Below are positions 3,341-7,588 of a DNA stretch of 7,588 nucleotides, piece after piece (within the stretch, counting starts at the first letter, position 1; every line of letters starts with the position of its first letter). This stretch comes from an uncultured Rhodobacter sp. (GTDB taxonomy: Bacteria > Pseudomonadota > Alphaproteobacteria > Rhodobacterales > Rhodobacteraceae): contig CALGTJ010000709.1 in the NCBI GenBank assembly GCA_937901435.1, forward strand, positions 1 to 7,588. The letters run 5' to 3'. A program made the translations under genes and the position numbers. The notes beneath the pieces were generated by a model, which was not told the origin of the DNA, made no database searches, and saw nothing but the letters and a program-made list of their open reading frames with translations.

Positions 3341-3949
3341 TCACTCCGTCACGCGCAGCTCCTCAAAGGATGTCGCAACCCATTTGCGGTATCCTGCACG
3401 CACTGCAATATTGGCGTGCCATTCGCCTACCACCGGCAAAGTATCCAACATGGTCGGGTGCAAATCCATGATGCGGTGAAACAAACTGCCAATGGCGATA
3501 TCTGCCATCGAAAAATCATCGCCAGCCAAGTAAGTGCGCCCGTCCGCAAGACCTGTTTCAAGAATGCGCAATGCCGCGTAGAGCGATTTGATATGCTTTG
3601 TCAAAGTCGCCTTGTCCTGCGCAGTCTTTCGCATGCGCACCTGTTGCCAGAATAACCCAAGAAACGGAGGTTGCAATGTTGTAGAACCAAACTCCATCCA
3701 CATATCCGCAATAGGGCTAACCAGTCCCATCGCCAAATAGCGCAGAATCGCGTGGCTTTCCCAAAGCGTGACGTCGCCATCCTGCAAAACAGGAACACGG
3801 CGCACGGGTGTCAGTGCGGTAAACTCTGGATCAGAGTTTCCTCCAAATATACCGCCAACAATCTTGTGATCATAGGGTAGCTCGCGCTCCTCCAAAGCCC
3901 ACAGCACCTTTTGCACATTGACCGAACTTGCACGTCCCCAAAGGATCAT
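3341..3949 (-). CDS. Glutathione S-transferase family protein
   Basis: This 202-residue soluble GST is distinct from the one at 1824. The N-terminal thioredoxin-like domain (residues 1-75) begins MILWGRASSVNVQKVLWALEE, with S9 at the position of the catalytic Ser. V52-P53 form the cis-proline loop and E64-S65 the glutathione gamma-glutamyl contacts. The helical domain has the family signature in LAGDDFSMADIAIG (141-154). Its start overlaps the stop of the upstream cyclase gene (ATGA, 3946-3949), and no Shine-Dalgarno sequence is visible before it. Translation therefore probably depends on ribosomes finishing the cyclase gene. It is the last gene of a leftward operon and ends exactly where the convergent metallo-hydrolase ends. 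Its role is probably conjugation or isomerisation with glutathione in the same pathway as the cyclase; the substrate is unknown. Confidence 0.92.
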   Translation of the reverse strand: MILWGRASSVNVQKVLWALEERELPYDHKIVGGIFGGNSDPEFTALTPVRRVPVLQDGDVTLWESHAILRYLAMGLVSPIADMWMEFGSTTLQPPFLGLFWQQVRMRKTAQDKATLTKHIKSLYAALRILETGLADGRTYLAGDDFSMADIAIGSLFHRIMDLHPTMLDTLPVVGEWHANIAVRAGYRKWVATSFEELRVTE

Positions 3950-4902
3950 TTGATCGCTTGGGGATTGATAGGAGATCCAGCAGCCCCAGGAATATGGAGC
4001 GGTGGGGCCGTGAAGAAGAACTCATACACACCATCTTCCGCGCAATCCTCACCGAGGTCTTTGAGGTAGAAAATCTCGCCCATGGAAATGCCTATGGCCG
4101 GGATAACGACCCAGTGCCATGGCTGATTGGCTTCCTCGGATTCATTCGGGCGCACTTCGCACCCCCATGTGTCCGCACAAATCGCTGCAATATCATTTTT
4201 CTTAATCCAATGCGCTGTCTCAAACGACAGACCGGGCGCATCACCGCCCGCATATCCTGTCCAATCCCCCGCCGCGAGACAGCGTTCCTGATGCCCCGTG
4301 CGCACAATCACAAAGTCACCTTTGCGTATGTCGACACCTTGCGCAGCCGCACATCTATCAAGATCGTCGTTGGTGATCGGATAGCCGTCGTCCAAGCTAT
4401 CCACGCCTTTCCAACGCGCGATATCGAGCAACACGCCGCGACCAACCATCTTATCACGCACATTTTCGATTCCGAGGTTTTTAGCACCATTTACCGTAAC
4501 ATCTGTCGCTGGAAATCCGTTATACATCTTGTCATCCAGAAAGATGTGGCACAGGGCGTCCCACTGCGTGCTGCCCTGACAGGGTAAGTTAATTGCATCA
4601 TCCGCGTAGCGCAAGTATGCTTTTCCGTCGCCATCTTGCTCACCAATAACGGCATCCGTTCCCGTTGCCAGCATCTGATGGATCATATTCCAACGGCCAC
4701 CAAACAGACCCGACTGTATCTTCTCCTTGAGGTCCAGACCTAGCGCAAATGTCTTTCCTTTTTTGATCAAACGACCCGCTGCAATCACATCCTCAGGCGT
4801 CACGTTATTCAACGTGCCAATCTGATCACCTTTCCCCCAACGCCCCCAATTAGAAAGCTCTTTGGCAGTGTCGTAAATATCCTGTCGCGTTAGTTTGGTC
4901 AT
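3946..4902 (-). CDS. Cyclase-family metal-dependent hydrolase (Pfam Cyclase, KynB-like fold)
   Basis: This 318-residue cytoplasmic protein belongs to the cyclase family, which includes kynurenine formamidase and isatin hydrolase and cleaves amides, lactones or cyclic imides. The N-terminal part has GDQIGTLNNVTPEDV, typical of the longer bacterial subfamily. The metal-site region GSTQWDALCH spans residues 110-119, with Q113, D115 and H119. GRGVLLDIAR (154-163), GDFVIVRTGHQ (195-205) and AIGISMGEIFYLKDL (269-283) follow in family order. Canonical members have GTHxDxxxH; here Gln stands where the first His is, as I recall for the GTQWD-type subfamily. The start is placed at ATG 4902 (MTKLTRQD) because GGGAGC at 4914-4909 sits 7 nt upstream; an in-frame ATG at 4923 would add only seven residues and lacks a site. 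It is the first gene of a leftward operon with the GST, driven from the shared gap with OsmC, where the TetR-type sites lie. Confidence 0.9.
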   Translation of the reverse strand: MTKLTRQDIYDTAKELSNWGRWGKGDQIGTLNNVTPEDVIAAGRLIKKGKTFALGLDLKEKIQSGLFGGRWNMIHQMLATGTDAVIGEQDGDGKAYLRYADDAINLPCQGSTQWDALCHIFLDDKMYNGFPATDVTVNGAKNLGIENVRDKMVGRGVLLDIARWKGVDSLDDGYPITNDDLDRCAAAQGVDIRKGDFVIVRTGHQERCLAAGDWTGYAGGDAPGLSFETAHWIKKNDIAAICADTWGCEVRPNESEEANQPWHWVVIPAIGISMGEIFYLKDLGEDCAEDGVYEFFFTAPPLHIPGAAGSPINPQAIK

Positions 4903-4908
4903 GTGTCT

Positions 4909-4914
4909 GCTCCC
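4909..4914 (-). promoter_or_regulatory. Ribosome binding site deciding the cyclase start
   Basis: On the minus strand this reads GGGAGC, 6 nt from ATG 4902 (7 nt if only GGGAG is counted). It favours the shorter 318-residue protein over a start at 4923. Confidence 0.7.
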
Positions 4915-4930
4915 GATGTGCATTGTTTAT

Positions 4931-4944
4931 TTATCGAATGACAA
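4931..4944. promoter_or_regulatory. Candidate TetR operator, copy A (cyclase-proximal)
   Basis: TTATCGAATGACAA shares its left half-site TTATCG exactly with copy B at 4997, and its right half TGACAA matches CGATAA at 4 of 6 positions. The similarity continues for several A/T bases beyond the box (ATTAAAT versus TTTAAAT). It overlaps the proposed -10 element of the leftward cyclase promoter. The assignment to the nearby TetR protein is inference. Confidence 0.5.
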
Positions 4945-4966
4945 ATTAAATTCGTGCCTGAGTCAA
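4938..4966 (-). promoter_or_regulatory. Possible sigma-70-type promoter of the cyclase-GST operon
   Basis: On the minus strand TTGACT (4966-4961) is a good -35 element, followed after 17 nt by TGTCAT (4943-4938), a weak -10. Transcription would start near 4931, giving a leader of about 28 nt before ATG 4902. The -10 overlaps operator copy A. Confidence 0.35.
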
Positions 4967-4971
4967 TGGAC

Positions 4972-5000
4972 TTGCCACATATAAGATCTCATGCTTTTAT
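4972..5000 (+). promoter_or_regulatory. Possible sigma-70-type promoter of the osmC-tetR operon
   Basis: TTGCCA (4972-4977) and TTTTAT (4995-5000) are separated by 17 nt. The -35 matches the consensus at five of six positions, the -10 at four of six. The -10 overlaps the left end of the perfect palindrome at 4997-5010, as expected if repressor binding blocks polymerase. Confidence 0.4.
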
Positions 5001-5010
5001 CGAACGATAA
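4997..5010. promoter_or_regulatory. Candidate TetR operator, copy B (perfect palindrome)
   Basis: TTATCGAACGATAA is a perfect 6+2+6 palindrome (TTATCG and its reverse complement CGATAA). It lies 24 bp upstream of the OsmC start, in front of the operon that also encodes a TetR-family regulator. Size, symmetry and position fit an autoregulatory TetR operator. It is repeated imperfectly 66 bp to the left (copy A) and in the gap before the CoxM gene (copy C). Confidence 0.65.
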
Positions 5011-5034
5011 TTTAAATCAGGGATACCAAACATC

Positions 5035-5526
5035 ATGGCCGATCCAGAAATGAAGACATTCGATATCATCTTTGAGGGCACTGGAACCATGTCTGGAAAG
5101 ATGCGCAACGACGTTAAAGTTCATTTTGGAACGATGAATGAGACCTATGATCTCGCAACAGATGAAGGCCCATTTCATGGTGGGGATGCAACCGCTCCGC
5201 CCCCACTTGCTCTGTTCACGGCGGCGCTAACAGGTTGCATCATGACCCAGATCAGGGCTTTTTCCAAACGAATGAAAATCCCGATCGGACAGGTTACAGT
5301 AAACGCGCGCCTGCATTGGCGGGGTGAGCAAATGGGGAACGATCCTTATACAACAGCGCCTGTTGGTTTTGATCTGGATATCGATTTTGACAGCCCTGCG
5401 AACAAGGAGGACCAGATGCGTTTGATGGCGGCCGCCAAGAAGGGCTGCTTCATCGAGACCACCTTGATGCAAGGGCTCGAAGTGGGGCACAGACTTCAAA
5501 TTGACGGCGATTGGCACGACGCATAG
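5035..5526 (+). CDS. OsmC family protein (thiol peroxidase-like)
   Basis: This 163-residue cytoplasmic protein has the OsmC/Ohr fold. The two family cysteines are present: C68 in AALTGCIMTQIRAFSKR at the start of the long central helix, and C138 in AKKGCFIETTL. These are the peroxidatic and resolving thiols of organic hydroperoxide reductases. The Pro-rich APPPLALF segment (54-61) ahead of the first Cys is also typical. Known family members reduce organic hydroperoxides, but some OsmC-like proteins have no proven peroxidase role. The start is set at ATG 5035 with AGGGA at 5019-5023, an 11-nt spacing that is slightly long; Met6 is possible but has no better site. The gene leads a rightward operon with the TetR regulator 10 bp downstream and is divergent from the cyclase operon, with two palindromic sites between. 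Confidence 0.9.
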   Translation: MADPEMKTFDIIFEGTGTMSGKMRNDVKVHFGTMNETYDLATDEGPFHGGDATAPPPLALFTAALTGCIMTQIRAFSKRMKIPIGQVTVNARLHWRGEQMGNDPYTTAPVGFDLDIDFDSPANKEDQMRLMAAAKKGCFIETTLMQGLEVGHRLQIDGDWHDA

Positions 5527-5530
5527 AGGG
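5526..5530 (+). promoter_or_regulatory. Ribosome binding site deciding the TetR start
   Basis: GAGGG, starting on the last base of the OsmC stop codon, lies 6 nt before ATG 5537. It supports that start over an in-frame ATG at 5501, which is inside the OsmC gene and would add 12 residues. Confidence 0.65.
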
Positions 5531-5536
5531 CCGCTC

Positions 5537-6193
5537 ATGACACAGCCTGACATAGCCCCCAATAAGCCACCAAAGCGCAAACGGCTCTCGTCCGAAGCGC
5601 GGCGTCAGGATTTTATCAATCAGGCGATTGAGTTCTTCGCGGAAGAAGGTTTTGAGAGCTCGACCCGCGGCTTGGCCAAGAAGCTTGGTGTCACTCAACC
5701 GCTTTTGTATCGTTATTTTCCATCCAAAAACAACTTGATCTCAGAAGTATACGACGCCGTTTACGTCAAACGTTGGCAACCTGAATGGGAGCCACTTTTG
5801 CGTGATCGCTCACGACCCTTGGCAGATCGCTTGAATACGTTTTACAAAGTCTACACTGACGCGATTTTTAATCGCGAATGGATGCGGATATTCCTGTTCT
5901 CAGGCCTCAAGGGCGTCGACATCAATCGCCGTTACATGCAACTGGTGCGTCAGCGCATTCTGGAACCCATCCTTATTGAAGCACGCGTTGAGTTTGGATT
6001 GCCAGACGTCCCTCCAAAACACTGCGAAGTTGAATTCGTGTGGGTCACACACGGCGGCATCTTTTATTATGGCGTACGGGATCTAATCTATGAAAGCGCG
6101 ATCTCCACCGACAAAGACCGCGTGATCGCCGATGCAATCACAGCGCTCATGGCCGGGTTAGAAATCAAATTGAACGGCCCAAAACAAACTTAG
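5537..6193 (+). CDS. TetR/AcrR-family transcriptional regulator
   Basis: This 218-residue DNA-binding repressor-type protein has a basic N-terminal tail (PPKRKR, 11-16), then the TetR_N domain at about 21-70. Its helix-turn-helix is TRGLAKKLGVTQPLLYRYF (43-61), followed by PSKNNLISEVYD. The C-terminal ligand and dimer domain (75-215) is all-helical, with WMRIFLFSGLKGVDINRRYM (115-134) and no recognisable ligand signature. It has a single cysteine, C163, so a simple two-thiol redox switch within one subunit is unlikely. It follows the OsmC gene by 10 bp in the same operon. It is likely to repress its own operon and neighbouring units through the 14-bp palindrome at 4997 and its relatives at 4931 and 6739. 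That pairing is inference from location and symmetry. Its TAG stop overlaps the TAA stop of the convergent peroxiredoxin-like gene. Confidence 0.93.
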   Translation: MTQPDIAPNKPPKRKRLSSEARRQDFINQAIEFFAEEGFESSTRGLAKKLGVTQPLLYRYFPSKNNLISEVYDAVYVKRWQPEWEPLLRDRSRPLADRLNTFYKVYTDAIFNREWMRIFLFSGLKGVDINRRYMQLVRQRILEPILIEARVEFGLPDVPPKHCEVEFVWVTHGGIFYYGVRDLIYESAISTDKDRVIADAITALMAGLEIKLNGPKQT

Positions 6194-6711
6194 GCAGTCG
6201 TTCCGCGCGCGGGATAGCTGTTGTCCATCGCGAACTTAACTTTAGACAGCAAAAACCCCACATCAGGGCGTGACCACGGCATGTTTGAGATATCAATCAG
6301 GTATAAACGTCCATCTGGACGCACCCAAAACAAACCTGGCTCCGCAAACTGGGGGATTTCGGTTTCTTTGAAGGCTGTCGATAGATAAAGCCCCCAGTTG
6401 CGCACATCATCTACCGTTGCGCCGTATGCGATATCGAGGTTGGCAAGCTCCCACTCCGATTTGGTTTGTGTTGCGCGATCTTCGGGATCCATGGACACGG
6501 CAACTACGTTGACACCAGCATCTGCCGCCATATCGGTCAGCTCATTTAGCTTGCTCAGATACATTTTGCATACAGGGCAATGTAGGCCACGATAAAAAAT
6601 CACCATCGTGAAGTTTTTTGGGGTTTGATCGGCAAGCGCCCAAGTTCCACCGCCAACCAAAGGCAATGAAAGTTCGGGCGCTTGGCTGTCTGGCATAAGT
6701 TTTTGGGTCAT
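6190..6711 (-). CDS. Peroxiredoxin-like (AhpC/TSA, redoxin-fold) protein
   Basis: This 173-residue thioredoxin-fold protein has no signal peptide, so it is probably cytoplasmic. After the family's PDSQAPELSLPLVGG entry, the strand VIFYRG (37-42) leads into the active site LHCPVCK, with C45 and C48 as a CxxC pair. The later strand VVAVSMDPED (69-78) and the cis-Pro region around residues 118-128 are also as expected. Classical peroxiredoxins have PxxxTxxC with no CxxC, so this belongs to the peroxiredoxin-like branch, which may reduce peroxides or disulfides. The start ATG 6711 has a modest ribosome binding site (AGGA, complement of 6721-6724) 9 nt upstream. The gene is transcribed leftward from the gap that holds operator copy C. 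Its end shares bases with the TetR stop codon (6190-6193). It may protect against peroxide made by the molybdenum hydroxylase; that is inference. Confidence 0.88.
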   Translation of the reverse strand: MTQKLMPDSQAPELSLPLVGGGTWALADQTPKNFTMVIFYRGLHCPVCKMYLSKLNELTDMAADAGVNVVAVSMDPEDRATQTKSEWELANLDIAYGATVDDVRNWGLYLSTAFKETEIPQFAEPGLFWVRPDGRLYLIDISNMPWSRPDVGFLLSKVKFAMDNSYPARGTTA

Positions 6712-6809
6712 TGTTTTGATTCCTAGCTTGATCCTTATTTATAACTCGATAACTTAGGTTGTATGTCGCGTAAAGGTTGGGCGACGAATCCATCTAGCTA
6801 GGAGACATC
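6712..6809. promoter_or_regulatory. Divergent control region between peroxiredoxin-like and CoxM genes
   Basis: This 98-bp gap serves two outward-facing genes. It holds the peroxiredoxin-like ribosome binding site (complement of 6721-6724), the CoxM one (AGGAG, 6800-6804) and the operator-like box at 6739-6752. On the minus strand TATAAA (6743-6738) is a plausible -10 for the leftward gene and overlaps that box, but no good -35 accompanies it. No convincing rightward promoter is visible. Confidence 0.55.
6739..6752. promoter_or_regulatory. Candidate TetR operator, copy C
   Basis: TTATAACTCGATAA has the perfect right half CGATAA and a left half TTATAA that matches TTATCG at 4 of 6 positions, with the same 2-bp centre spacing as the perfect site at 4997. 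Overall it matches the TTATCGnnCGATAA pattern at 10 of 12 positions. It overlaps the leftward -10-like TATAAA. Its position in a second divergent gap suggests that the peroxiredoxin-like and molybdenum hydroxylase units belong to the same regulon. Confidence 0.45.
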
Positions 6810-7588
6810 ATGAAAGCTCCAGACTTTGACTATCTACGACCAGCAAGTTTAGCTGCTGCCGTTGCGATGCTCGCCGAATATGATGGCGAAGCTATGCCGC
6901 TCGCGGGTGGACAAAGCTTGATGCCGATGATGAATTTTAGAATGGCTGCGCCCGAGGCCTTGATCGACCTCGTCAATCTAAGCGAGCTGCGTGGTATTTG
7001 GGTGGAAAGCGATACAATCCGTATTGGCGCAATGACGTCTTACGCCGAGTTAAAGGGTGATGCTGCAGTGCAAAAGCATATCCCACTATTCAGCCTCGCA
7101 CTGCCCCATATCGCCCATGATGCGATCCGTAATCGTGGCACGATTGGCGGCTCTCTAGCGCTTGCTGATCCAGCGGCAGAAATGCCCGCGATGATGCTCG
7201 CATTGAACGCAAACATCGAAATCGAAGGGCCAGATGGCACACGCATGCTAAGTGCCGATGACTTCTTTCTTGGCATGTTCGAAACAGCTTTGGATGGTGA
7301 ACTCATCAAAGCAATTCACATCCCAGTTGCAACGTCCGAACAACGTTTTGGCTTTCACGAGCTGACACAGCGGCACGGTGATTACGCCCTCGCAGGGGTT
7401 GCTATCGCTCAAACATCGAACACATATCGCGCGGCCTTTTTCGGGGTAGCAGATCGTGCAATGCGCGTGCCAGAACTTGAAGTGGCACTTGAAAAACAAG
7501 CCGATTTCTCATCCGTTCTCGAACACCTCGATAGTATCGATTTCACCGATGATCTCAAAGCAAATTATAAGACCCGTCAGCGTCTTGC
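6810..7588 (+). CDS. FAD-binding subunit of a molybdenum hydroxylase (CoxM/xanthine dehydrogenase subunit M type), 3' truncated by window
   Basis: The frame is open from ATG 6810 to the right edge, giving 259 residues; family members are usually about 270-290, so only a short tail is missing. The two FAD-binding motifs are present: AGGQSLMP at 32-39 and TIGGSLALADPAAE at 111-124. RHGDYALAG (188-196) marks the C-terminal CO dehydrogenase flavoprotein domain. The ribosome binding site AGGAG (6800-6804) is 5 nt before the start. In this family the subunit passes electrons from a [2Fe-2S] small subunit to FAD while a molybdopterin large subunit hydroxylates an aromatic, purine, nicotinate or aldehyde substrate. 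The partner genes should follow downstream, outside the window. Despite automatic labels of carbon monoxide dehydrogenase for this family, nothing here shows CO as the substrate. It is likely the first gene of a rightward operon. Confidence 0.93.
   Translation, partial: MKAPDFDYLRPASLAAAVAMLAEYDGEAMPLAGGQSLMPMMNFRMAAPEALIDLVNLSELRGIWVESDTIRIGAMTSYAELKGDAAVQKHIPLFSLALPHIAHDAIRNRGTIGGSLALADPAAEMPAMMLALNANIEIEGPDGTRMLSADDFFLGMFETALDGELIKAIHIPVATSEQRFGFHELTQRHGDYALAGVAIAQTSNTYRAAFFGVADRAMRVPELEVALEKQADFSSVLEHLDSIDFTDDLKANYKTRQRL

Follow-up and report, generated by a model that had tools for sequence, protein, structure and literature searches.

A conserved palindromic box and its probable TetR-family repressor in a molybdenum hydroxylase gene cluster of alphaproteobacteria

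The window analysed here is the whole of a 7,588-nucleotide stretch of DNA from a Rhodobacterales bacterium resembling Planktotalea (approximately 98% identity to contigs L004–L006 over the overlap, and 86% to the Planktotalea contig L007). It encodes a TetR-family regulator together with an OsmC-like protein, a cyclase-family hydrolase, a glutathione transferase, a redoxin-like protein and one subunit of a molybdenum hydroxylase, and it carries three copies of a palindromic box, for which the TetR protein is the proposed repressor. The features are given below by coordinates, strand and description, with their basis in brackets.

4928..4947, core 4931–4944, no strand: box A, predicted operator at the cyclase–glutathione transferase promoter (score 28.2 with the 20-bp model; core TTATCGAATGACAA, 10/12 positions)
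4994..5013, core 4997–5010, no strand: box B, predicted operator at the OsmC-TetR operon (TTATCGNNCGATAA, a perfect 6+2+6 palindrome, 12/12)
6736..6755, core 6739–6752, no strand: box C, predicted operator of the molybdenum hydroxylase operon (core TTATAACTCGATAA, 10/12)
5537..6193, plus strand: TetR-family regulator, proposed repressor (PF00440, E 6.2e-12)
5035..5526, plus strand: OsmC-like protein, leading the tetR operon (PF02566; NF041052)
3946..4923, minus strand: cyclase-family (PF04199) hydrolase, start possibly at 4902 (Pfam)
3341..3949, minus strand: glutathione transferase (Pfam; overlaps the cyclase gene)
6190..6711, minus strand: AhpC/redoxin-like gene, sharing the gap of box C with the FAD subunit (Pfam and box counts)
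6810..7588, plus strand: FAD-binding subunit of the molybdenum hydroxylase, cut by the window end (PF00941, E 1.1e-49)
4961..4966, minus strand: probable −35 element TTGACT of the cyclase promoter (TTGAC conservation; box A lies over the matching −10)

The three boxes with shared spacing, reported earlier from the letters of the window, were found again at the same positions and with the same agreement: TTATCGNNCGATAA occurs with no mismatch at 4997–5010 and with two each at 4931–4944 and 6739–6752. As had also been described, all three are intergenic; A and B share the cyclase|OsmC gap, in which the OsmC start lies approximately 110–130 bp from the cyclase start, and C occupies the redoxin|FAD-subunit gap. 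The cyclase and glutathione transferase genes probably form one operon, since they overlap, and in L007 the FAD subunit is followed by FeS-type and Mo-binding subunits. Judged on the window alone, neither imperfect box is significant, because 31 of 200 shuffles reach the five matches to TTATCGNNCGATAA found at up to three mismatches (mean of the shuffles 2.77); the perfect box alone is striking. The fuller element spans approximately 20 bp, TATTTATCRNNYGATAAATA, and a symmetric 20-bp model of it (described below) finds A, B and C as the only window sites scoring at least 15. It finds no box before the GST1, MBL or cupin-like gene of the window, which therefore look to be outside the regulon.

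Relatives of the locus were collected with the TetR sequence as query, giving 80 loci from genome contigs (the best 80 of 526 relatives), and by a DNA search, giving three plasmid loci. The gene order cyclase | OsmC-TetR | redoxin | molybdenum hydroxylase is widely retained across them, and the cyclase|OsmC or cyclase|TetR gap is readable in 28 loci, many of which show a second box in that gap. The 20-bp model was trained on 42 sites from 26 of these 28 gaps, L004 and L006 being excluded; the near-copies of the window, L004–L006, were kept out of training and out of the upstream-gene (260 bp) and promoter-spacing counts, yet stand among the 25 redoxin|FAD-subunit test gaps. Out of sample, the model finds a site in 25/25 of these test gaps (score 17.4–26.5; three are near-copies of the window), approximately 70–125 bp ahead of the FAD-subunit gene, and for each gap only 0 or 1 of 100–300 random versions scores as well. 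Conservation in orthologous gaps, on which the box hypothesis had been staked, is thus borne out. Over all 83 loci (1.48 Mb), 252 sites score at least 15, training sites included, against 1.7 expected from first-order random sequence; 222 of them lie at most 350 bp upstream of a cyclase, OsmC, FAD subunit, 2,6-dihydroxypyridine hydroxylase-like monooxygenase (DHPH), DctP, DctQ, HsaA or TetR gene. The other 30 (for example L001 5068 and 7866, L044 6608 and 7632, L040 14689 and 14713) are not upstream of these eight gene kinds and likely mark further regulon members in Hyphomicrobiales and plasmids.

The background frequency of the box was taken from genomes of relatives and is low outside the cluster, as the same hypothesis demanded. 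The core TTATMRNNYGATAA occurs at four places in G001 (3.1 Mb), all within 14.1 kb of one contig, and at five in G002 (4.1 Mb), four of them in the cluster; a reversed control pattern was met once over the ten genomes scanned, and a longer box pattern behaved similarly in eight genomes.

Box and regulator also occur together. A survey of 296 genomes of the family of G003 found a close TetR relative (E ≤ 1e-60) in 11, and the strict box pattern in 19, namely nine of these 11 and ten of the 285 others; among the latter ten is G210, whose boxes lie near a TetR of 39% identity. The two TetR-bearing genomes missed by the strict pattern are boxed according to the model (L088 in G027, L089 in G183). 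All 11 have a cyclase with a box before the gene, read from coordinates in G003, G008, G068, G103, G170 and G258, from the box model in G027, G183 and G154, and as L020 and L025 for G085 and G128, the identity of these being taken from equal coordinates. The cyclase box is retained in G154, where cyclase and tetR lie on separate contigs. Cyclase relatives without a close TetR have no site scoring at least 13 in the fetched stretches of G021 (86% identical), G256 (69%) and G149 (53%); G021, without a TetR match, retains TTGAC. A further such relative, in G034, lies at a contig edge. The second cyclase copy of G258 (68%), which adjoins another TetR, has no box.

Per-gene counts considered up to 260 bp upstream and left out L084 and L086, which overlap other loci; L085 was retained despite its overlap with L009 (same genome), such that DctP, DctQ, luciferase-like monooxygenase (LLM), PuuE and similar counts include one gene twice. 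The cyclase gene has a box in 45/45 cases, even where it lies at least 2 kb from tetR, and the FAD subunit in 58/59, including a TGATC-type site in L017 before a more divergent (46%) FAD-subunit gene. In L017, two adjoining TGATC-type palindromes (18296–18336) precede that gene, and the locus also has TTATC-type boxes. Boxes precede 25/27 DctP, 23/25 DctQ and 18/26 OsmC genes; boxes ahead of LLM (22/49) and cupin (10/16) genes may lie in gaps that also adjoin the FAD-subunit or DHPH gene. Flavin reductase (1/37) and GST3 (1/5) are rarely boxed, and no box was found in this range before PuuE-like (0/50), MBL (0/6), CMD (0/3) or GST1 (0/3) genes. The redoxin gene is boxed in 11/23 loci; the 12 loci in which it is not all retain the FAD-subunit box, so box C belongs to the molybdenum hydroxylase, and the redoxin probably does not belong to the conserved targets. 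In several Hyphomicrobiales loci (L021, L023, L027, L029, L032), cyclase diverges from HsaA-flavin reductase-OsmC-TetR. Planktotalea has two boxes 79–80 bp apart in the TRAP transporter gap, and others ahead of the DHPH-like gene and in the GST3–flavin reductase gap. The boxes between dctP and dctQM (L007 16149 and 16228, and many loci alike) have GCTAA rather than GATAA right half-sites.

The sequence-only reading had one TetR controlling cyclase–glutathione transferase, OsmC-TetR, the redoxin gene and the molybdenum hydroxylase from two divergent gaps. Gap conservation, genome rarity and TetR co-distribution uphold this for all but the redoxin (12/23 without a box), and the restriction to two gaps was too narrow: boxes also precede TRAP transporter genes and, depending on the lineage, additional flavin monooxygenase genes.

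The TetR protein itself has the expected organisation. Its TetR_N helix-turn-helix domain scores 45.5 bits (PF00440, cut-off 24), with model helices at 43–50 and 54–60, and the AlphaFold model (mean pLDDT 87.8, pTM 0.79) is all-helical, with ten helices and a C-terminal ligand/dimer domain. The PDB matches listed for the model are TetR-family proteins, the top one with a TM score of 0.64 (query) / 0.73 (target). The protein falls far below the cut-off of all 14 NCBIfam families matched (PRK13756 32/265 bits, AcuR 30/247, RutR 21.9/368, HapR 20.1/350).

Paralogous TetRs (approximately 40–48% identical) adjoin other molybdenum hydroxylase operons, and the gaps there carry 6-2-6 palindromes with other half-sites. 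Three classes were distinguished: helix QPLLYRY with half-site TTATCR (class I, 26/26 gaps), QSLLF with TGATCA (class II, 12/12) and HAVIYRH with TGACCA (class III, 3/3). The class III operator, TGACCA-N2-TGGTCA, resembles what we take to be the RutR consensus. The residues that differ between classes form helix 54–60 in the AlphaFold model, which is likely the recognition helix. With leave-one-out models per class, each gap scores best with its own class, so that helix class tracks operator class in 41/41 gaps; the three helix classes are single clades (support 98/97, 100/98 and 100/100), and the match therefore amounts to two evolutionary changes rather than 41. The comparison was made without L004 and L006; 15 of 19 lower-identity TetR places gave gaps (12 class II, 3 class III), and outside it stand L096, which lacks upstream sequence, together with L087, L104 and L106, which have the class I helix and no adjoining FAD subunit. 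Among the sister lineages (L092, L093, L095–L103, L105, L107–L111), nearly all lie beside other molybdenum hydroxylase operons, with TGATCA- or TGACCA-type operators. An exact half-site count upstream of tetR was uninformative (‘none’ in 76/85 class I, 6/12 class II and 2/3 class III), because OsmC or other genes separate the class I box from tetR and the match is too strict.

Since the box co-distributes with TetR, and paralogs with other helices adjoin other palindromes, the TetR protein is very probably the binder of the boxes. There is accordingly a strong case, though one short of certainty, that boxes A–C are operators of the TetR encoded at 5537–6193, and that it acts as an autoregulated, inducible repressor of an import-and-breakdown regulon. 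Computation shows what the box is, that it is conserved and rare, and that it goes with the TetR; binding, repression, inducer and substrate are inferred. A palindromic site is present and conserved at both its own and its target promoters, as is usual for an autoregulated repressor. On the cyclase side, TTGACT (4966–4961) is followed 17 bp on by TGTCAT within box A; on the OsmC side, TTGCCA (4972–4977) precedes TTTTAT (4995–5000), which lies within box B, both being read by eye. TTGAC starts 14–20 nt upstream of the box in 31/45 cyclase gaps, and 18–19 nt upstream in 30 of the 45. Placement of the boxes over the −10 elements, as far as these are correctly assigned, is the layout of an autoregulated repressor. 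A TetR dimer would occupy each palindrome of approximately 20 bp (6-bp TTATCR half-sites around a 2-bp centre), on or close to the −10 of the cyclase–glutathione transferase, OsmC-TetR and molybdenum hydroxylase promoters, and would exclude RNA polymerase, so repressing its own operon; a pathway substrate or intermediate may release it. Outside the window, the TRAP importer (dctP|dctQM) and the dihydroxypyridine-hydroxylase-like monooxygenase would be under the same control. Looping between boxes was considered, but with spacings that range over 28–128 bp, independent sites are the simpler reading.

Several observations weigh against this assignment. In some genomes core sites lie far from tetR (one each in G103, G008 and G002, two of the four in G258 and three of the four in G068), and in G034, which has no TetR match at E ≤ 1e-40, a DHPH relative is preceded by a box-like site. 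Loci L004–L083 were picked by having the TetR, such that the 296-genome survey is the only independent test of co-distribution, and the box seeds and helix classes were set after the sequences had been viewed. Only 11/14 DHPH-like and 29/50 HsaA-like monooxygenase genes are boxed, one of the latter (L046) being a contig-edge artefact. TTGAC is absent at 14–20 nt in 14/45 cyclase gaps (three have it at 24 nt), and since strict sigma-70 scans of both gaps gave no promoter, conservation is the basis of the promoter reading. Two further TetRs, divergent but with a class I helix and outside the 41 gaps, fit poorly: L104 has a half-and-half box, TTATCACTTGATCA, and L106 shows no site even down to score 10. 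The descent of the 41 matches from two changes, noted above, points the same way.

Among the alternatives, the best placed, although improbable, is that the TetR binds the boxes but activates, or does both, as LuxR of Vibrio harveyi, a TetR-type protein, both activates and represses (PMC2628434); among solved structures, those of the LuxR group match the TetR best in both profile and fold, though only distantly. The boxes, however, overlap the inferred core promoters and sit close upstream of tetR's own operon, and TetR proteins usually repress divergent neighbours less than 200 bp away (PMC3511530), a distance that the OsmC and cyclase starts satisfy. Slightly less probable again is that another cluster regulator, or a global one, binds the boxes and the TetR is a mere neighbour. 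LysR-type genes do lie near the cluster in some loci, but the three LysR types compared occur at scattered loci with none common to all, on which ground each was rejected as the binder (other regulators were not systematically searched); rarity of the box elsewhere in the scanned genomes counts against a global regulator, and box presence and operator class follow the TetR and its helix class. Chance, or simple AT-rich promoter sequence, would fit the shuffle count of the window but can practically be dismissed given the conservation of place and sequence in many genomes and the rarity elsewhere.

The wider family invites a further, more tentative proposal, which we hold to be somewhat better than an even bet: three sister TetR lineages beside molybdenum hydroxylase operons may have kept the 6-2-6 frame while half-site and recognition helix changed in step. 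The resulting switches would serve related ring-breakdown pathways and be insulated from one another, in some cases within a single genome. G085 holds both class I and class II.

The pathway genes comprise the molybdenum hydroxylase, LLM, a PcaD-like alpha/beta hydrolase, a PuuE-like hydrolase, flavin reductase and glutathione transferases; in Planktotalea, LLM, alpha/beta hydrolase and PuuE-like hydrolase come after dctP|dctQM. The best solved relative of the pathway monooxygenase is 2,6-dihydroxypyridine hydroxylase (2vou, E 2.5e-45), and because of this gene set the regulon probably serves import and breakdown of an aromatic or N-heterocyclic compound, for which the TRAP transporter may be the importer. 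For the cyclase the sole solved relative found, 5ibz, is uncharacterized.

XdhR of Streptomyces controls xanthine dehydrogenase. It is a TetR protein (named in PMC3511530) that, like the one described here, acts beside a molybdenum hydroxylase operon; it belongs to another phylum, and the likeness is one of description, not of operator or protein comparison. Repression of divergent enzyme genes by TetR proteins is standard (PMC3511530). RutR of Escherichia coli (pyrimidine use) is likewise a repressor of a catabolic operon with a palindromic box, of approximately 16 bp (PMC10891134), whereas the present TetR scores below the RutR cut-off (21.9/368 bits), and operator and gene set differ. FhtR of Enterococcus faecalis, a TetR-family regulator of haem efflux, has 14-nt palindromes, TTATCAATCGATAA and TTATCGATTGATAA, in the −10/−35 region; it binds each, and either alone is enough for repression (PMC7858072). 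Those palindromes have the same core as the boxes here, although FhtR is a haem sensor from another phylum acting on haem efflux genes, likened by operator and not by protein kinship. The LuxR/HapR/SmcR group of Vibrio quorum sensing, which gives the best matches among solved structures, has operators of 21–22 bp with dyad symmetry (PMC2628434). These are quorum-sensing regulators, with 19% identity in the top fold match and 20.1/350 bits for HapR. The AT-rich outer bases of the box may resemble LuxR-type operators.

A literature search, with most subscription papers out of reach, found no description of this regulon, which seems undescribed, although systems of its kind are well known. An uncharacterised import-and-breakdown pathway of alphaproteobacteria now has a bounded gene set, a probable repressor and a defined operator, and a single reporter would allow a search for the inducer and hence for the pathway substrate. 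The helix/operator set is the most interesting part of the regulon; the matched sets form a small natural test of change in TetR DNA specificity.

Three further observations concern genes of the window. A frame at 259–1263, putatively named Gfo/Idh-like oxidoreductase, has two internal stops where L007 and L009 have none; either the gene has decayed or the contig sequence is in error there. The redoxin (6190–6711) gives a weak match, below cut-off, to a SelL-related model, and the OsmC-like protein (5035–5526) scores above the cut-off of a model for OsmC-related (seleno)proteins.

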